DNA of 20,699 nt from a virus. The position numbers and the translations under genes were made by a program. Shown here piece after piece: positions 11,853-20,071 of this stretch (positions are counted from its first letter, which is position 1; each line of letters opens with the position of its first letter). The notes under the pieces are model-generated. The model was not told the origin of the DNA. It saw only the letters and a program-made list of their open reading frames with translations, and searched no databases. The stretch covers positions 1-20,699 of the IMG/VR virus record IMGVR_UViG_3300006637_000053; one strand, given 5' to 3'.

Positions 11853-11939
11853 TGGTGCCAACTGTCGGATTCGAACCGACACGCCCATATGAGCAAGAGA
11901 TTTTAAGTCTCTGGTGTCTACCTATTCCACCAAGTTGGC
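11853..11939 (-). tRNA. tRNA-Leu (anticodon TAA)
   Basis: The acceptor stem GCCAACT pairs with AGTTGGC, the T arm GTCGG-TTCGAAT-CCGAC is complete, and the anticodon stem AGAGA/TCTCT encloses CTTAAAA, giving anticodon TAA for codon UUA. A long variable arm of class II type and the 87-base length fit tRNA-Leu. The 3' CCA is encoded (11853-11855). It is placed between the nuclease-like gene and the small basic gene of the same operon, so it is probably cut out of their transcript. Confidence 0.95.
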
Positions 11940-11946
11940 TAATAGG

Positions 11947-12384
11947 TTATAGATTAATAGTCTCAACTTCAGCATAGGGAATGTGATAGAACAACTCTCC
12001 CTTTAGAATGTTACGACCACTAGCTTCTTTCAATCGTTCAGGCTTAAGTGCGCTGTCCTTGATGCGGAAACACTGCTTAAAGTCTTTACGGAAGATGTAG
12101 AAGTTTAGAAACCCAGAGCCATACTTATCCAGCAAACGAGTCTTACGTTCAGGGATACGTACCTCGGCCCAGTGCGTAGGCCACGGGCCATCCCATGCTA
12201 CCTTAACCTCTGCTTCGTTGTAGTATGTATTACCGTTTTTAGTAGAAACAATATCTACGTAGAAGTCTTCGTCTGTCTTGGTGATGGTGTGACCACGGTT
12301 AATGAGCAAACTGTTAAGTGCTGCTTTTGCCGAAGTATCGTATGCTTGATATAAGGCACGGTTAAAAGGTTTGCGTACAGCCAT
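11947..12384 (-). CDS. Putative PD-(D/E)XK-type nuclease between tRNA genes
   Basis: The start is set at the ATG at 12384 (AAAGGAAAGACA upstream). The frame runs 45 bases further, but there it is tRNA-Thr sequence. The 145-residue product has FYVDIV (Asp44) followed by NEAEVKVAW (Glu59-x-Lys61), a D...ExK arrangement as in PD-(D/E)XK nucleases. RIPERKTRLL then comes at 77-86 and a hydrophobic strand FLNFYIFRKD at 92-101. The order of strand D, strand ExK, helix with RK and strand suits this fold, but similarity is low, so the call is tentative. Its place directly between tRNA-Thr and tRNA-Leu is notable. Possible roles are host or phage DNA processing, or a selfish or protective endonuclease. 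Confidence 0.45.
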   Translation of the reverse strand: MAVRKPFNRALYQAYDTSAKAALNSLLINRGHTITKTDEDFYVDIVSTKNGNTYYNEAEVKVAWDGPWPTHWAEVRIPERKTRLLDKYGSGFLNFYIFRKDFKQCFRIKDSALKPERLKEASGRNILKGELFYHIPYAEVETINL

Positions 12385-12399
12385 TGTCTTTCCTTTTGG

Positions 12400-12475
12400 T
12401 GGTGCTGGCAGTAGGACTTGAACCCACAACCCCCTGATTACAAATCAGATGCTCTGCCAGTTGAGCTATGCCAGC
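12400..12475 (-). tRNA. tRNA-Thr (anticodon TGT)
   Basis: The acceptor stem GCTGGCA/TGCCAGC is perfect. The D arm includes TAGCTCAACTGGCAGAGCA. The anticodon arm TCTGA-TTTGTAA-TCAGG carries anticodon TGT (codon ACA), and the T arm GTGGG-TTCAAGT-CCTAC contains the usual TTCAA loop. The 3' CCA is encoded at 12400-12402. The gene ends five bases before tRNA-Arg begins. Confidence 0.95.
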
Positions 12476-12480
12476 GAATG

Positions 12481-12554
12481 CCTCCCCCGTAGGATTCGAA
12501 CCTACAACCTACAGATTAGAAGTCTGTTACTCTGTCCAGTTGAGCTAGGGGGAG
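12481..12554 (-). tRNA. tRNA-Arg (anticodon TCT)
   Basis: The acceptor stem CTCCCCC/GGGGGAG, D arm GCTCAACTGGACAGAGT, anticodon arm ACAGA-CTTCTAA-TCTGT and T arm GTAGG-TTCGAAT-CCTAC make a full cloverleaf of 74 bases with anticodon TCT (codon AGA). Unlike the two neighbouring tRNAs it has no encoded CCA: the discriminator G is followed by CAT. Host nucleotidyltransferase would have to add the CCA. Confidence 0.93.
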
Positions 12555-12728: not shown

Positions 12729-14627
12729 TCATGTTAAGTCAACTATTTCACAGACTTCACCAGTGCAAGCAAATGTTTGACTGCCCTTGGTGTTATCCTG
12801 CTTCTCATACTCTGAAAGCTTCGACCAGTCAATAGCCTTTGGCATAACCGAAAGCAACATTTCGTAGTCTGACTTTCCTACTTCTTGATAAGGTGCCTGT
12901 TGATATGTGTGCTCGTTGTAAGGCAGGAACGATACACCAGACATCTCGTCAAAATGTTTGTAGACAAAAGCACCAACCTCAAACCATTCGTCTTTACGTA
13001 CATTGATAGTGACAGACGGTTTGTGTTCGCACCAGTGTCTCTGATAGATAAGCCACATTTCTAGCTGGTCAATAGCTGACAAGTCAGAGGTAACTACTGC
13101 ATTGTCAGGTGCCTTAACAGGGAACGAGAACACTGTAGTAGTCTGTGGCTTCATTACACAAGGCTCTGATGGGATACCTTGATCCTGCATGAACTGCGTC
13201 AGCGGGTCTTTATTGTCTCCTCTGACGGTTCTAATATAGTAGTGACTATGCCTTGCGTGGATGCCGGATGCACTGTCAACGAGTTGCGAGACAGTTCCAG
13301 ATGGCTTGACACAAGTAATAGCAGTAGAAGCATTAATACCCAGTTTAGCAGCCCACTCAGCGTTTGTTTCAATGGCAACATTACGTAGGTGTTCAAGGGT
13401 TTTGTCCAAGCCTGCATTTTTTCTAGTCATCAATGGGTTATCCATGATGCCAGTAAGGCTGACACCAAGGAGACGTTCTTCTTCTGTGTTCTTCTGCCAA
13501 ATCTTACGCAGGTAGGGGAACTTAGTGTATGTACTCTGGATCGTGCCAAGGATAGTAGCTAGACGGACCTTGCGTGTCAAGCTGTCAATGTCATCCGTTG
13601 CACGAACAACTACCTCAGTGAGATTGCAGAACTGATACGGACGCAGGATAATCTCAGAGCATGGGTTAGTACCAAACTCAAAGTTAGGATCACGACGACC
13701 ATTCTTATTGGCTTGCTTGACAGAAGCCTGACGATTGAAGATGCCACGTTCACCGGAGCCACTCTCAACAAGAGCCATCCACTCACGCATGAAGCTGACA
13801 GCATCCGGCTTCTCAGTGTACGACACAGAGTTGTTAGCCAAGGCTCGCTGCGGTTCATTCTCCCACCAGTTACCGGACTTAGCATGGCGCATACGGTCAT
13901 CACTCAAGTTGGACAGAGAGATCATAGCACTGCGACGAACACCACCAACAACTACAACCTCGCCAATCTTGCACATGATGTCATGGCATTCAATGGAAGA
14001 CAGCTTGCGGTTCTGTGCTTCCTTGAACTTAGCAATGACAAAGTTGAACAGGTCAACCAGAGGGGCAGGGCCAGAGGCACGGCCACCAAAAGTCTTTAGT
14101 CGTGCACCAGCAGGACGCACACGTGACACATCCCACTTAGGAATCTCACCACTATAGAGGAGTGCAATCACTTGACGCAGAGCCTTTGCCCAACCCTCCT
14201 TGCTATCCTTAACGACGACAACTGTGTCGCTGTTGAAAAGCTGTGGCACCTCAGGCAGCTTCGACACGAATTGACGTTCAACGGAGAAGCCAACACCAGT
14301 ACCGCAGAGCAGAATGAACATCGCTTCATCGAAGGACTTAGGGTCATCTACGGGTAGGTAGCTGCAGTTGTAGCCAGCAGTGTTGTCACGTTCAAGGGCA
14401 GGGCCAGCAGTCATCATAGCCCGCATGGAGGGCATGATCGACAGGTCAAGGACAGCCTCTCGAATAAACCATGCAATGTCTCCGTCTACATTCGGATTTA
14501 CAAGGTTAGTTATATAGCGGTCAACAGTCTCTGGCCAGCTTTCACGGCGGTTCTCCTCCTCAAGCCAACGAGCATAGCGGCTAGTGTGGATAAAGGCTTG
14601 GTAGTCAGTGGGTAGTTGGTTGTTCAT
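12729..14627 (-). CDS. nrdJ: Adenosylcobalamin-dependent (class II) ribonucleoside-triphosphate reductase, monomeric type
   Basis: The 632-residue protein reduces ribonucleotides to deoxyribonucleotides with coenzyme B12 as radical source. The redox pair is Cys88 (YNCSYL) and Cys334 (QFCNLTE). The thiyl-radical loop NPCSE gives Cys323 and Glu325. The C-terminal shuttle pair is Cys621 and Cys626 (CTGEVC). PSGTVSQLVDSASGIHARHSHYYIRT follows the pattern of the monomeric enzymes like that of Lactobacillus leichmannii. No ATP-cone is evident at the N-terminus, which makes it shorter than the roughly 740-residue Lactobacillus enzyme. GAGGA precedes the ATG and overlaps the end of the MazG-like gene. 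The gene supplies precursors for phage DNA and ties replication to host cobalamin. Confidence 0.95.
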   Translation of the reverse strand: MNNQLPTDYQAFIHTSRYARWLEEENRRESWPETVDRYITNLVNPNVDGDIAWFIREAVLDLSIMPSMRAMMTAGPALERDNTAGYNCSYLPVDDPKSFDEAMFILLCGTGVGFSVERQFVSKLPEVPQLFNSDTVVVVKDSKEGWAKALRQVIALLYSGEIPKWDVSRVRPAGARLKTFGGRASGPAPLVDLFNFVIAKFKEAQNRKLSSIECHDIMCKIGEVVVVGGVRRSAMISLSNLSDDRMRHAKSGNWWENEPQRALANNSVSYTEKPDAVSFMREWMALVESGSGERGIFNRQASVKQANKNGRRDPNFEFGTNPCSEIILRPYQFCNLTEVVVRATDDIDSLTRKVRLATILGTIQSTYTKFPYLRKIWQKNTEEERLLGVSLTGIMDNPLMTRKNAGLDKTLEHLRNVAIETNAEWAAKLGINASTAITCVKPSGTVSQLVDSASGIHARHSHYYIRTVRGDNKDPLTQFMQDQGIPSEPCVMKPQTTTVFSFPVKAPDNAVVTSDLSAIDQLEMWLIYQRHWCEHKPSVTINVRKDEWFEVGAFVYKHFDEMSGVSFLPYNEHTYQQAPYQEVGKSDYEMLLSVMPKAIDWSKLSEYEKQDNTKGSQTFACTGEVCEIVDLT

Positions 14628-16259: not shown

Positions 16260-17103
16260 TGATTAGCACGTAGTCTACTTCTGGAAGAACTTTAGCTGTT
16301 GATACTCTAGAGGGAAGTGTTTGTAGTTGTGGGAAGCACTTCCTCTTGTAGTCACAGAACTTACACCCATCAGCTAAGATTAGATTACCTGAGGGTTTCT
16401 TTCTGTATGTCTCAGGGACAGGTGTAAAGCAACGCTTGAAGGGTTCATCGTTGTCAATGTAGTTTACTACAGATTGGATTTCCTGCAGTACAGCATCCTT
16501 ATCTACATCAGATGCATCTACATACTTGAACATCCCGTTAGCTTTATTGACTACCCACCAGCCACCTACATCTTTGTTAGCTGCAGTAGCGTAGCCTACA
16601 AGCTGAGACACATAACCAAAGCTGTCGCTTTTCTGTAGAGTTTCAAGGGAGTCAAACTTATTCTGGTAAGACCAAGGCGATGCGCTCTTAACGTCATCAA
16701 TCTTACCGTCCAACTCCATGTCGTACTCACCATTAATCTCACGACCGTTGGCTAGTTTGAGGGTGACACTATCGTTGTCCTTGAAGTCTACACCTGCTGA
16801 GCGAAGCAGCCCTTTGAACACAGCCTCAATGATATCACCAAGGATCATGTTCATTAGGAAGTGCGGTGGCAGGGGTGTCTTATCTGCAGGATCATTCTTC
16901 TCAAACCATAGCTGACACTTAGGCTTACCAATGTTAGACATACGCAAGCGGAACTCGTCACGTGGACCTGAGTTAAACTGCTTGTTAAGCGCAGCCTTAA
17001 CATCGGAGGCGACCTTATCAGCCACCTCCTCAGTCATTGTAGCATCGCCAGCCATAGCCTTCTGCAAGAATGCATAGACCATTAGCTCTGCTGGATGGTT
17101 CAT
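16237..17103 (-). CDS. Cas4/RecB-like PD-(D/E)XK nuclease with Cys cluster
   Basis: This 288-residue protein has GEYDMELDG at 125-133 and DDVKSA at 136-141 (Asp128 ... Asp137-x-Lys139), then QLVGYATA (Gln167, Tyr171), the order typical of the PD-(D/E)XK exonuclease family of Cas4 and RecB/AddB. Four cysteines, Cys63 near the N-terminus and Cys247, Cys250 and Cys256 at the C-terminus (CKFCDYKRKCF), match the arrangement that holds a 4Fe-4S cluster in this group. The expected activity is single-strand exonuclease, acting in recombination or host DNA degradation. Its ATG overlaps the stop of the upstream gene by four bases (ATGA). It stands between the candidate ssDNA-binding protein and endonuclease I, as exonucleases do in T7-like replication modules. 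Confidence 0.82.
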   Translation of the reverse strand: MNHPAELMVYAFLQKAMAGDATMTEEVADKVASDVKAALNKQFNSGPRDEFRLRMSNIGKPKCQLWFEKNDPADKTPLPPHFLMNMILGDIIEAVFKGLLRSAGVDFKDNDSVTLKLANGREINGEYDMELDGKIDDVKSASPWSYQNKFDSLETLQKSDSFGYVSQLVGYATAANKDVGGWWVVNKANGMFKYVDASDVDKDAVLQEIQSVVNYIDNDEPFKRCFTPVPETYRKKPSGNLILADGCKFCDYKRKCFPQLQTLPSRVSTAKVLPEVDYVLINDDSTEA

Positions 17104-17981
17104 TCGTCTACGTCCACGAAGTCGTTGTCAATGATGCCTTTGACCATAGCTTCATCTTCTTTGGTCAAGCCACTGCCACAACGCTCAGCATGGAGGTCGA
17201 GGATTTTACCGTTGGTATACTCAATTACTTCGATGAAGTTACGCAGAGCATCGTTGTCTTCTGGGGTAATATCACAGACGTTACCAAGAGAGGCATCAAC
17301 GAAGCCAAACTTAGCACCCGTAGGGATAGAGCCTTCCTTAGAGCTAAGCACAAGCTCACACATAATAGGAAGCATGTTCTTGCCTGTGATCTTCTTTACT
17401 GCAGCGTCAATGTTCTTGATGCTGTTCTGGTTCTTCACATCAAAGACAAAGGGGATGCTTGTATACTCTGCAGTAAGATCATTTCCTTTAGCATCCTTAG
17501 GATTATCAATGCTCAGGGTGCCATAGAAAACCTTAGTGCGCTTGACTGAACGGATGACCTGCTTAGTCTTATCTGGCAGTGCGTTGAAGTCTTCGATGTA
17601 ACCAGAAGGCCGACCAAGGTTGAACCCACCAATGTTATCCTTAAGATCACCGTTCAAGTTGTTAGCAAGAACAGACTTTTCCATTTCATTAGTGTCTGCG
17701 TTCCAGCGTGTCCACTGTTGACGCATTGCGAAGATGCGGATACGAAGCTCAGTTGCATAAACAACTTCCTCGCCACGGGTGACAGTGTACGTACCAATAG
17801 GCAGAACCTCTGTCTTGATCTTCTTGCCGTTGAAGTCTACCTCACCCATGACAGGCTGATGGATCATGCCTACACGGGAAAGATTAGGGCTAGACTGAGA
17901 GGTAGAACCTCCTGTGCTGATACCCATAAGGTCTGCCATAGACAGGCCACGTTCATTTGCAATAGTAAGTTCTGTGCTCAT
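17100..17981 (-). CDS. Candidate ssDNA-binding protein, 293 aa
   Basis: This is a soluble 293-residue protein of mainly beta character. Residues 1-40 are Ser/Gly-rich and probably flexible. The central part (45-235) contains many short strands and aromatic or basic residues, for example IRIFAMRQQWTRW (81-93) and RSVKRTKVFYGTLSI (144-158). The C-terminus is acidic and ends IIDNDFVDVDE, which resembles the acidic tails by which ssDNA-binding proteins such as T7 gp2.5 recruit partners. It is encoded between DNA polymerase and exonuclease, where phages often carry this protein, and has its own promoter candidate and a strong AAGGAG site. No OB-fold motif can be proved by eye; the function is inferred from tail and place. 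Confidence 0.45.
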   Translation of the reverse strand: MSTELTIANERGLSMADLMGISTGGSTSQSSPNLSRVGMIHQPVMGEVDFNGKKIKTEVLPIGTYTVTRGEEVVYATELRIRIFAMRQQWTRWNADTNEMEKSVLANNLNGDLKDNIGGFNLGRPSGYIEDFNALPDKTKQVIRSVKRTKVFYGTLSIDNPKDAKGNDLTAEYTSIPFVFDVKNQNSIKNIDAAVKKITGKNMLPIMCELVLSSKEGSIPTGAKFGFVDASLGNVCDITPEDNDALRNFIEVIEYTNGKILDLHAERCGSGLTKEDEAMVKGIIDNDFVDVDE

Positions 17982-18013: not shown

Positions 18014-18042
18014 GTTATACCGTCATATGTCCTTTGTGTCAA
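18014..18042 (-). promoter_or_regulatory. Sigma70-like promoter at the 3' end of the DNA polymerase gene
   Basis: On the - strand, a perfect TTGACA (18042-18037) and TATAAC (18019-18014, one mismatch to TATAAT) are spaced by 17 bases. The -35 box lies in the last codons of the polymerase gene and the -10 box just beyond its stop. Transcription would start near 18006, about 25 bases ahead of the ATG at 17981 and upstream of its AAGGAG. It would drive the ssDNA-binding candidate and the genes after it with host RNA polymerase. Confidence 0.6.
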
Positions 18043-20071
18043 GCCAATTCGGACCTATTTTTGCTTCCAAAAGTAGCTCAACGTTTAGCTTTATGCCGTA
18101 AGTATCCTCAACCAAAGTATTAATGTTCTGGTTGAGACTATCAATAATATGTAGCACCCTTTCTTTCTCGTCTGGGTGTACGTCTATGACCATACTGTCG
18201 TGCACTGTGTTAACCAAGACAGACTGTAACGGCTTTAGCATACGATGCAACTCATTTAATACAACAGGGACTACATCCCCTGTAGCGAAGCCTTGCACCG
18301 GGTAGTTCTTAATCATAGTGAAGTGGGTAGGGGAACCATTAGCCCTACGTGCTACGTCAGGGAAAGCATACTGCCTGCCTGACACATTAGTGATCTTCAA
18401 GAAGCGTAGAGCCTCAGAGGCTAGTTTCTGGTGCCACTTGCCTATACCTGCATACTTCTCAGTGAAGTGCGTGTAGTACGCCTGCTCTGCCTTGCTACGG
18501 CCATACCCTGTGGCACCAAACAGAGGAGCAAAGGTATGTTCTTTTGCAGCCTGTCGTGACGTAGGCTGGCCTGCATCCGTGATAACCTTAGCTGTATAAC
18601 TATGCACATCAAAGCCTGTCTCAATCTCACGCATGGCAGTGTCGTCTTGTGCAAGGAAGGCAGCAGTGCGAAACTCTAGCTGTGCAAAGTCAGCCTCGAC
18701 AATGTAGCCACCATCCCAACGAGAGGTGAACACACGTTTAACTGGGAACGTACCGCCACGTGGCATGTTCTGCATATTAGGATTACGCCCAGAGAAGCGG
18801 CCAGTAGCTGTTATGTGCTGCGTCAAGCCTACATGAAGGTAGTCATCGTGCTTAGTATAGCCATCAATGCCATCCACAAAGCTAGACAGATAGCTAGATA
18901 CAGCGGACAGCCTCTTCAAGTCAGACAAGAATGTAACTGCATCCTGCATGTTGTTATTCTTAGCTGTAGAGATAAGCGTGTCAAGGTTATCTTTACCCGT
19001 GCTGAACCCATTAGCACTGACCCATGCCTTACTTGGTGCTGTAAACTTAAGTCCAGCCACCTGCTTAGTCTCTTCTAGTTGATAGCCACGGGCATCGCAA
19101 TCCTTACATTTGTTAGGCTTGCTATACTTTGTGCCATCCTTCTTTACTTTGTAGGTTTTACCTTGTCCCTCACAGGTATGGCAAGTGAATGCCTTAGTGC
19201 GATACAGGGTCTTACTGTTTGCATTGACTGCAGCTTTAAACTCTTGTGGTGTATTAGTAAAGTTGAACAGGTCTACCCATTCTTTCTTATTGTTTACACT
19301 ACGAGAGAACACAACCTGAGACATCTGCTCTGGAGAGTTGAGGTTAATAGGCGTGTCGCCCATAAGCTCACGCACCTTGTATTGCAAGCGTGTCTCAATG
19401 TCAGCACGTTCCTTCTCAAACAAGTCACGCACTTTGTTTAGTTCCTGCCTGTCTACTTTGAACCCTGACATGTACATTCTGGTAAGGGTTTTGCAGGTTC
19501 TGAAAGTAACTCCCCTAACGGTTGAAAGGGAGTCGGATTCGGGCTTGGCATAATCCCGTTCGATTGAGTGGAACAACTCACTAGTAGTGAGAAGGTCACA
19601 CCGGAGATAATGGCTAAGCTCACGAAGAGGAATCTCGTTAGTATTATATCCTTGCTTAAAGTAAGTCTTAAGCGTGTCATCTTTCTGTACCTCTAGGTTG
19701 CGCCGCTCAGCACAAGCGGCAAGAGACAGTGGCTGCTTCTGTCCACGTAGCAACAGATACTCTGCAAGCATAGTGTCATATACGTCACCGTCATACTTGA
19801 AGCCACTCTCCCACAGCCACATCAAGTCGTGCTGTAGGTTGTGACCAATAAGCAGGGTAGTCATGTCTAGTACTTGCTGTACAAATGCACGACCTAGCCC
19901 TGACTTATCTTTGTATTCTACGTGATCCAGTGTTACAATGTGCAACTCTTCGTGATTGTCTACGTTAAGCAGGCCCACTTGAGTCAAGCTATTCAAAGGT
20001 TCAAACGGATCAATGTGATCCCTTCCGTCCCGCTTAGTGATACTATTCTCTACGTCTAGTACAAGTCGCAT
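18023..20071 (-). CDS. Family A DNA polymerase with 3'-5' exonuclease and DnaJ-type zinc finger
   Basis: This 682-residue replicative polymerase has an N-terminal proofreading domain: Exo I LVLDVE (Asp6, Glu8), Exo II GHNLQHD (Asp82) and Exo III YLRCD (Tyr155, Asp159). The polymerase domain has motif A VEADFAQLEFR (Asp461, Glu466), motif B RQAAKEHTFAPLFG (Arg506, Lys510, Phe514, Phe518) and motif C VHDS (His624, Asp625). Between them, about 295-330, is a zinc-finger-like insert with CHTCEGQG (Cys297, Cys300) and CKDCDARG (Cys322, Cys325), a DnaJ-type pattern described in the polymerase of marine phage HMO-2011. Phe514 is at the site equivalent to E. coli Pol I Phe762, and Phe518 replaces the usual Tyr766. 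The gene starts 11 bases after the helicase stop. Confidence 0.95.
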   Translation of the reverse strand: MRLVLDVENSITKRDGRDHIDPFEPLNSLTQVGLLNVDNHEELHIVTLDHVEYKDKSGLGRAFVQQVLDMTTLLIGHNLQHDLMWLWESGFKYDGDVYDTMLAEYLLLRGQKQPLSLAACAERRNLEVQKDDTLKTYFKQGYNTNEIPLRELSHYLRCDLLTTSELFHSIERDYAKPESDSLSTVRGVTFRTCKTLTRMYMSGFKVDRQELNKVRDLFEKERADIETRLQYKVRELMGDTPINLNSPEQMSQVVFSRSVNNKKEWVDLFNFTNTPQEFKAAVNANSKTLYRTKAFTCHTCEGQGKTYKVKKDGTKYSKPNKCKDCDARGYQLEETKQVAGLKFTAPSKAWVSANGFSTGKDNLDTLISTAKNNNMQDAVTFLSDLKRLSAVSSYLSSFVDGIDGYTKHDDYLHVGLTQHITATGRFSGRNPNMQNMPRGGTFPVKRVFTSRWDGGYIVEADFAQLEFRTAAFLAQDDTAMREIETGFDVHSYTAKVITDAGQPTSRQAAKEHTFAPLFGATGYGRSKAEQAYYTHFTEKYAGIGKWHQKLASEALRFLKITNVSGRQYAFPDVARRANGSPTHFTMIKNYPVQGFATGDVVPVVLNELHRMLKPLQSVLVNTVHDSMVIDVHPDEKERVLHIIDSLNQNINTLVEDTYGIKLNVELLLEAKIGPNWLDTKDI

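Follow-up and report, generated by a model that had tools for sequence, protein, structure and literature searches.

We analyzed a 20,699-base (20.7 kb) fragment of a virus record, from an ocean phage and called the window here at its full length, and found that the zinc module of its family A DNA polymerase sits, according to alignments and structure models, at the tip of an approximately 100-residue insert within the thumb, after the helix that carries INLNSPEQ. Judged from its motifs and models, the module is most likely a single DnaJ-type zinc centre, that is, half of a DnaJ central domain with a putative zinc ion. We put at about 0.5 the probability that this zinc-stapled basic hairpin on the thumb holds the product duplex and raises processivity, a reading that predicts bound zinc, contact of the loop with DNA and a gain in processivity. 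The module itself is real and conserved, had been correctly recognised in an earlier note on this DNA, and has already been published as a lineage marker. It is a criterion of HMO-2011-type polymerases that the exonuclease-polymerase interval holds a partial DnaJ central domain, in which CXXCXGXG occurs twice (PMC9038755), and such a domain has been described for three RCA phages (PMC6918029) and for eight recombinant metagenomic genomes (PMC8528129), so the feature was already known. The sections available from these three papers use this marker of the HMO-2011-type polymerase as a search criterion and give no tested function, and the words thumb and processivity have 0 occurrences in their main texts. 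No title retrieved in our searches on thumb inserts, zinc and CXXCXGXG named the thumb placement. As far as the literature searched shows, the additions made here are the thumb placement, the all-or-none occurrence of the cysteines, the conserved charge and the acidic-tailed neighbour. Placement in the thumb turns an odd DnaJ domain into a testable claim on DNA grip and processivity; if the claim is true, there would be a second natural route, beside the T7 thioredoxin clamp, to a processive family A phage polymerase.

The polymerase is encoded on the minus strand at positions 18026 to 20071 of the window, and translation of the open reading frame (20071 to 18023) gave 682 aa and a stop. The protein comprises a 3'-5' exonuclease, thumb, palm and fingers, and was matched by Pfam DNA_pol_A (E=5.5e-45; 154.4 bits, cut-off 34.3), Pfam DNA_pol_A_exo1 (E=1.2e-05; 25.6 bits, cut-off 23.6) and the DNA polymerase family PHROG 17 (E=2e-81). 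The Pfam matches thus show the pairing of family A polymerase and 3'-5' exonuclease that is asked of the HMO-2011 type. Its identity was 75.8% to the polymerase of CRP-207, 73.9% to that of CRP-603, 73.5% to that of CRP-2 and 56.1% to that of HMO-2011. HMO-2011 was reportedly first described by Kang et al. in 2013, and its own record annotates DnaJ_CXXCXGXG between exonuclease and polymerase. By sequence, the window's polymerase is of the HMO-2011 type, an assignment made from the polymerase of a 20.7-kb fragment. The order of domains and the two Cys pairs are the same as in the Puniceispirillum phage HMO-2011, the roseophages CRP-1, -2, -3, -207 and -603 and others of this type; the window polymerase differs in reading CKDCDARG, not CXXCXGXG, at the second motif and is otherwise an ordinary member.

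Translation and alignment confirmed that two cysteine motifs flank a Lys-rich loop, as the earlier note had claimed. The first, CHTCEGQG (residues 297-304; 19160 to 19183, minus strand), supplies Cys297 and Cys300, and the second, CKDCDARG (residues 322-329; 19085 to 19108, minus strand), supplies Cys322 and Cys325. The basic stretch that joins the pairs, EGQGKTYKVKKDGTKYSKPNK (residues 301-321; 19109 to 19171, minus strand), has a net charge of +5. Residues 297-329 correspond to positions 19085-19183, and the interval 19082-19187 previously assigned to the module, which holds both motifs and the loop, was therefore right to a few bases. When the sequence of the window polymerase was shuffled 20000 times, a CxxC-(15-45)-CxxC pattern arose twice, so that its presence exceeds chance. 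The naming of the module as a DnaJ-type zinc finger stood only in part. The DnaJ central domain consists of four CXXCXGXG repeats and has two zinc centres. The module has just two Cys pairs, the second motif departs from CXXCXGXG in having Ala at the first Gly position, and the Pfam DnaJ central domain PF00684 matched residues 292-333 with 19.5 bits (E=0.0012), below the gathering cut-off of 32.7. What stands is half of a DnaJ-type zinc domain, and not membership of PF00684. The partial domain as worded in PMC9038755 was found in the window, with two motifs in the exonuclease-polymerase interval and the second of them a variant; a strict reading of CXXCXGXG would exclude the 118 of 328 insert-bearing rows of our alignment that have a non-Gly residue at position 327.

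This alignment had 341 rows, made up of the window and 340 ORFs spanning the region, from 359 ORFs that matched the polymerase; the other 19 did not span residues 240-375 and were dropped. The insert was 98-128 aa long in 328 rows, which include near-copies and represent 240 distinct inserts, and the corresponding loop was 22-24 aa long in 13 rows without an insert. All four cysteines were present in 328 of 328 insert-bearing rows and none in the 13 insert-less rows, and no row had one to three of them. Among the other cysteines of the polymerase, Cys120 occurred in 182 of 325 rows, Cys158 in 34 of 326 and Cys193 in 108 of 327. Gly302 and Gly329 were also kept in all 328 insert-bearing rows, while position 304 was Gly in 318 and position 327 was Gly in 210 and Ala in 84, so that conservation falls on the presumed metal ligands and on a single Gly in each pair. 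The rows had been retrieved by short patterns, which may bias the Cys count: the pattern KIQKIKKD sits in the zinc loop, and some other single patterns match the early portion of the insert. In a scan that used two patterns outside the insert, the rows that were long enough showed either four cysteines or no insert.

The charge of the loop was conserved as well. The stretch joining the Cys pairs had a net charge of +4 to +11 in 328 of 328 rows and of at least +5 in 316. A net charge of at least +5 was reached by 2.1% of 38,163 control 21-mers (every fifth one of 318 polymerases), a comparison in which the 70 of 328 rows whose stretch is 33-34 residues long, instead of 21, sum more residues than the control. 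The loop with its flanks contained the most basic 21-mer of its own polymerase in 237 of 318 cases, and in the other 81 a more basic one was found elsewhere.

The module was placed in the thumb on the basis of the match to Bacillus Pol I, the insert-less rows, and the helices and structural alignment of AlphaFold2 models. Using phmmer, residues 89-257 of the window polymerase were aligned with residues 86-244 of the Bacillus chain, ending at FNINSPKQLGVILFEK (window INLNSPEQMSQVVFSR), and the match restarted at query residue 393 and chain residue 285, leaving 135 query residues against 40 chain residues. Residues 242-255, INLNSPEQMSQVVF (19307 to 19348, minus strand), contain the thumb helix preceding the insert; the alignment pairs them with FNINSPKQLGVILFEK in Bacillus Pol I, and a comparison by eye pairs them with FNPSS in T7. 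The whole insert covers residues 257-357 (101 aa; 19001 to 19303, minus strand). AlphaFold2 modelled the full polymerase from 71 sequences, with neither zinc nor DNA, at a mean pLDDT of 93.1 and a pTM of 0.85, and the insert was flanked in this model by helices at residues 247-255 and 360-372 (the latter the thumb helix that follows the insert; 18956 to 18994, minus strand), with pLDDT values of 85-95 in ten-residue blocks. Within the insert, DSSP assigned two short helices before the zinc module (residues 262-284; 19220 to 19288), and then a two-stranded ribbon with a rising arm at residues 290-296 (19184 to 19204) and a returning arm at residues 330-338 (19058 to 19084), all on the minus strand; the ribbon was tipped by the Cys pairs and the loop. 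When the insert was modelled separately, the same elements were obtained at a mean pLDDT of 88.9. Superposition of the full model on Bacillus Pol I took in 541 residues, with a Z of 33.2 and an rmsd of 3.1. The 50 matches listed for it were mostly Bacillus, Taq and Klenow chains, and T7 polymerase was absent among these 50. The earlier location of the module between the exonuclease and palm domains was thus correct as to the exonuclease-polymerase interval but missed the thumb.

We compared this placement with that of the thioredoxin-binding domain of T7 polymerase, which we take to span residues 258-333; FNPSS starts at residue 334. Both are thumb inserts with basic residues, the T7 domain adjoining the FNPSS helix and the window insert the INLNS helix. 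However, the T7 domain precedes its helix, whereas the zinc module follows the equivalent one, so that the same helix is flanked at different sites; the equivalence of the helices was judged by eye, since MAFFT aligns the T7 thumb poorly. T7 polymerase also has no paired CxxC, unlike the window polymerase.

Comparisons of the insert with known folds pointed to DnaJ. A profile of 66 inserts run against PDB sequences had the Cys-rich domain of E. coli DnaJ (1exk, E=0.0033) as its top match. Next came a half-match to thioredoxin 4ruv at E=0.028, then human DnaJA3 at E=0.064 and lambda Q entries with E values of 0.08-0.19. Foldseek of the insert found DnaJA2 as the best match (prob 0.99, E=0.17) and no match at E<=0.001. 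VIA-align listed DnaJA2 (Z 4.4), anti-TRAP (4.0), UvrA (3.6), BSD2 (3.5), DnaJ (3.0) and lambda Q (2.8), values to be read with the program's warning that a Z under 8 may mean merely a common arrangement. These low-scoring matches fell in the model range 32-82, or residues 288-338, and covered both Cys pairs. In a fold search against predicted viral proteins, many small phage proteins were found, such as K7QL67 (48 aa; TMt 0.70, E=0.041), and none matched at E<=0.001. The low scores agree on DnaJ-like zinc folds and lend weak support to a putative DnaJ-type zinc centre. The module shares with the DnaJ central domain (PF00684, E. coli DnaJ 1exk, human DnaJA2) the CXXC pairs with Gly and the hairpin between them; it differs in having two motifs where DnaJ has four, in having no J domain, in scoring below the Pfam cut-off and in lying inside a polymerase. 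The weak likeness to anti-TRAP, BSD2, the UvrA zinc region and lambda Q (Z 4.0 to 2.8) and to the small phage proteins concerns zinc folds that are free-standing or part of unrelated proteins, and only suggests a shared small fold. In PMC5313236, gp45 of phage Loki is reported to carry CXXCXGXG twice and to match lambda Q by HHsearch.

The same matches bear on two other roles for the module. By analogy with DnaJ in lambda replication, the half domain could recruit host DnaK/Hsp70 or mimic DnaJ during replication; E. coli DnaJ was the best PDB sequence match of the insert, and a link to DnaJ in lambda replication is raised for the HMO-2011-type domain in PMC9038755. We consider this very unlikely, as Pfam found no J domain in the polymerase, the two Cys pairs allow just one of the two zinc centres of DnaJ, and anti-TRAP, UvrA and lambda Q are non-chaperones with similar zinc folds. 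The CxxC pairs could also form a disulfide redox or thioredoxin-like switch that controls the polymerase, which would fit the glutaredoxin gene of CRP-207 and the profile match, a weak one, between thioredoxin 4ruv and insert positions 7-45. In all 328 insert-bearing rows, however, the four cysteines are kept jointly with Gly302 and Gly329, a pattern that resembles a metal site, and the insert leaves the second half of the thioredoxin fold unmatched. There was no thioredoxin chain among the fold matches listed for the insert by Foldseek and VIA-align, which by itself does not exclude a thioredoxin fold. Taken together, a redox switch is hardly to be expected.

A positive loop in every row, together with precedents for DNA contact by the thumb, makes a zinc-stapled basic grip our preferred reading. 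In family A polymerases, a large share of the contacts to the duplex backbone comes from the thumb (PMC9224347), exposed basic residues of the T7 thumb domain bind or clamp the DNA backbone in a simulation (PMC5984650), and plant organellar polymerases carry a Lys-rich thumb insertion (PMC7699545). In the window polymerase, zinc would staple the two-stranded ribbon inserted in the thumb, and the thumb, in gripping the primer-template duplex, would present the conserved Lys-rich loop that joins the Cys pairs. The loop would most likely run along the backbone of the new duplex and slow dissociation. The polymerase would then have a processivity element of its own, located in the region that carries the thioredoxin-binding clamp in T7, and would need no host protein for it. 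Points against such a grip include the weak fold scores of the insert, the sub-threshold Pfam match and the 81 polymerases with a more basic 21-mer elsewhere; in addition, the insert-less relatives of the StenR_269 type manage without the module, and a conserved basic loop suits protein docking equally well.

The plant enzymes suggest yet another function. Their insertion 1 is, like the window insert, a Lys-rich thumb insertion of a family A polymerase, situated in the same subdomain and equally rich in Lys, and its lysines are essential to three functions, namely bypass of lesions, end joining and the lyase activity that removes 5'-dRP (PMC7699545). By analogy, the Lys-rich insert of the window polymerase might confer translesion synthesis, strand displacement or end joining. 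The likeness is one of location and Lys content and does not imply homology, and no zinc site is mentioned for insertion 1 in the portion of PMC7699545 available; we regard this function as improbable.

Docking of a protein, the chief alternative, would be compatible with the zinc-stapled grip. The basic zinc tip could bind a phage replisome partner by an acidic tail at its C-terminus. The most plausible partner is the product, 293 residues long, of the gene directly downstream (17100 to 17981, minus strand), a candidate single-stranded DNA-binding protein (SSB), SSB-like by inference only, with a tail ending in DNDFVDVDE. Phage SSBs end in an acidic tail. Such a tail was found in 78 of 78 homologues of the downstream protein (blastp, fetched loci), where the final 15 residues have a net charge of -2 to -7, and several tails end in an aromatic residue; examples are NNDFVDVDE, INVEEAAY and DVDEAPF. 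A homologue of the gene follows the polymerase in CRP-207 and in HMO-2011. T7 offers a precedent, in that the tail at the C-terminus of its SSB makes contact with the thioredoxin-binding domain (PMC7699545). On the other hand, the downstream protein had no Pfam or PHROG match and no PDB match below E=0.4 (4-sequence profile), and these searches gave no support for an SSB identity beyond the acidic tail. In HTVC033P, which bears the insert, the homologue of the neighbour lies one gene further off and has a hardly acidic tail, INDAPEKVLAS. We view docking onto this neighbour as possible but rather doubtful. A T7-like docking of the helicase tail was weakened as an option, the C-terminus of the helicase being not clearly acidic in the 84 homologues compared, where net acidity across 15 residues ran from -1 to +3.

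To return to the distribution of the insert, tblastn with the HMO-2011 insert (E<=0.1), a search that could miss a very divergent insert, found 12 of 50,697 phage records, all of them HMO-2011 (two records of one phage), CRP phages or HTVC033P, while 2290 phage records matched the polymerase at E<=1e-5. A broad distribution among family A or T7-like polymerases was thus rejected as far as searched. The paired CxxC pattern was absent from the 11 other phage polymerases sampled from the 2290 matching records (T7, StenR_269, MEP402, ICP2, Lullwater, Vibrio 1.209.O, BouleyBill, A511, P74-26, SheckWes and St11Ph5), and CxxC was wholly absent from the polymerases of the cobaviruses CRP-4 and ICBM2 and of CRP-13, which has a cobavirus-like replication module. 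In a quick tree of 72 polymerases, from which the insert columns were removed and 17 close relatives left out, the 52 insert-bearing rows were set apart together by a single branch with an SH-aLRT of 88, consistent with one change. The window grouped with HMO-2011 and CRP-1 in a starred clade of 30 rows with a value of 100, that is, with HMO-2011 and the CRP phages as expected of the HMO-2011 type. The order of the outgroups is unsure because of the long deep branches and the midpoint root. The rarity among phage records, the absence of CxxC from the cobavirus polymerases of CRP-4 and ICBM2 and the clustering in the tree bear out the proposal that the module, absent from T7, is a lineage marker of the HMO-2011 type, and the insert was far from general among T7-like polymerases (12 insert records versus 2290 polymerase records).

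The simplest reading of the tree is one gain of the insert at the base of the HMO-2011 type, and the matches to small phage proteins hint, though they do not prove, that it came from a zinc protein that stood by itself in a phage. Longer Lys-rich stretches without CxxC were found in the same thumb loop of Lullwater (L382), ICP2 (L381) and MEP402 (L091), indicating that this loop tolerates additions. Putting these points together, we propose very tentatively that in HMO-2011-type phages a self-contained clamp replaced the thioredoxin-dependent one of T7-like polymerases: a mini-DnaJ zinc protein, free-standing in phages, would have been captured once in the thumb loop to form the basic grip on product DNA, and the acidic tail of an SSB family, new and encoded beside the polymerase, might regulate it; this scenario as a whole seems to us rather unlikely. 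A cellular origin was provisionally rejected. A scan of genome contigs gave 10 loci, nine in MAGs (at most 8 distinct organisms, with repeated contigs) and one in an uncultured alphaproteobacterium, which we took for phage contigs binned with their hosts; helicase homologues adjoin the polymerase in three of them (L371, L376 and L377). Two contigs with an HMO-2011-type polymerase (L372/L373 and L375/L376, each pair identical in name and length) each occurred in two different marine MAGs, Flavobacteriales TMED123 and Neomarinimicrobiota MED589, and are probably misbinned phage. The 13 insert-less rows are relatives of Stenotrophomonas phage StenR_269.

Several features of other genes were also observed. 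StenR_269, itself insert-less, has a gene for a thioredoxin-domain protein two genes before its polymerase (2514-2780 of locus L090). The polymerase of Lentibacter phage ICBM2 is annotated as two overlapping genes (94-2005 of locus L392) with the break in the same thumb loop, and the first product has a very basic end, RDKQRQNKRRYSRR; the polymerase of CRP-4 is unbroken. The break in ICBM2 may be a natural split, a frameshift or a sequencing error. Two-gene polymerases were also seen in the Zobellviridae MEP402 (L091, 2992-5103) and ICP2 (L381, 1453-3546), where the division falls shortly after TGRLSSS.PNLQN, a different point from that of ICBM2; in MEP402 a small gene separates the parts. Elsewhere in the window, the ribonucleotide reductase gene (12729 to 14627, minus strand) had 78.2% DNA identity to that of the cobavirus ICBM2, compared with 72.9% for CRP-207, to which the window otherwise had its best wider match; this hints at gene exchange. 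Three tRNA genes, Leu(taa), Thr(tgt) and Arg(tct), lie at 11853 to 12554 on the minus strand, and the tRNA Thr gene had 90.9% identity to one of Aeromonas phage AhP_Mru1.
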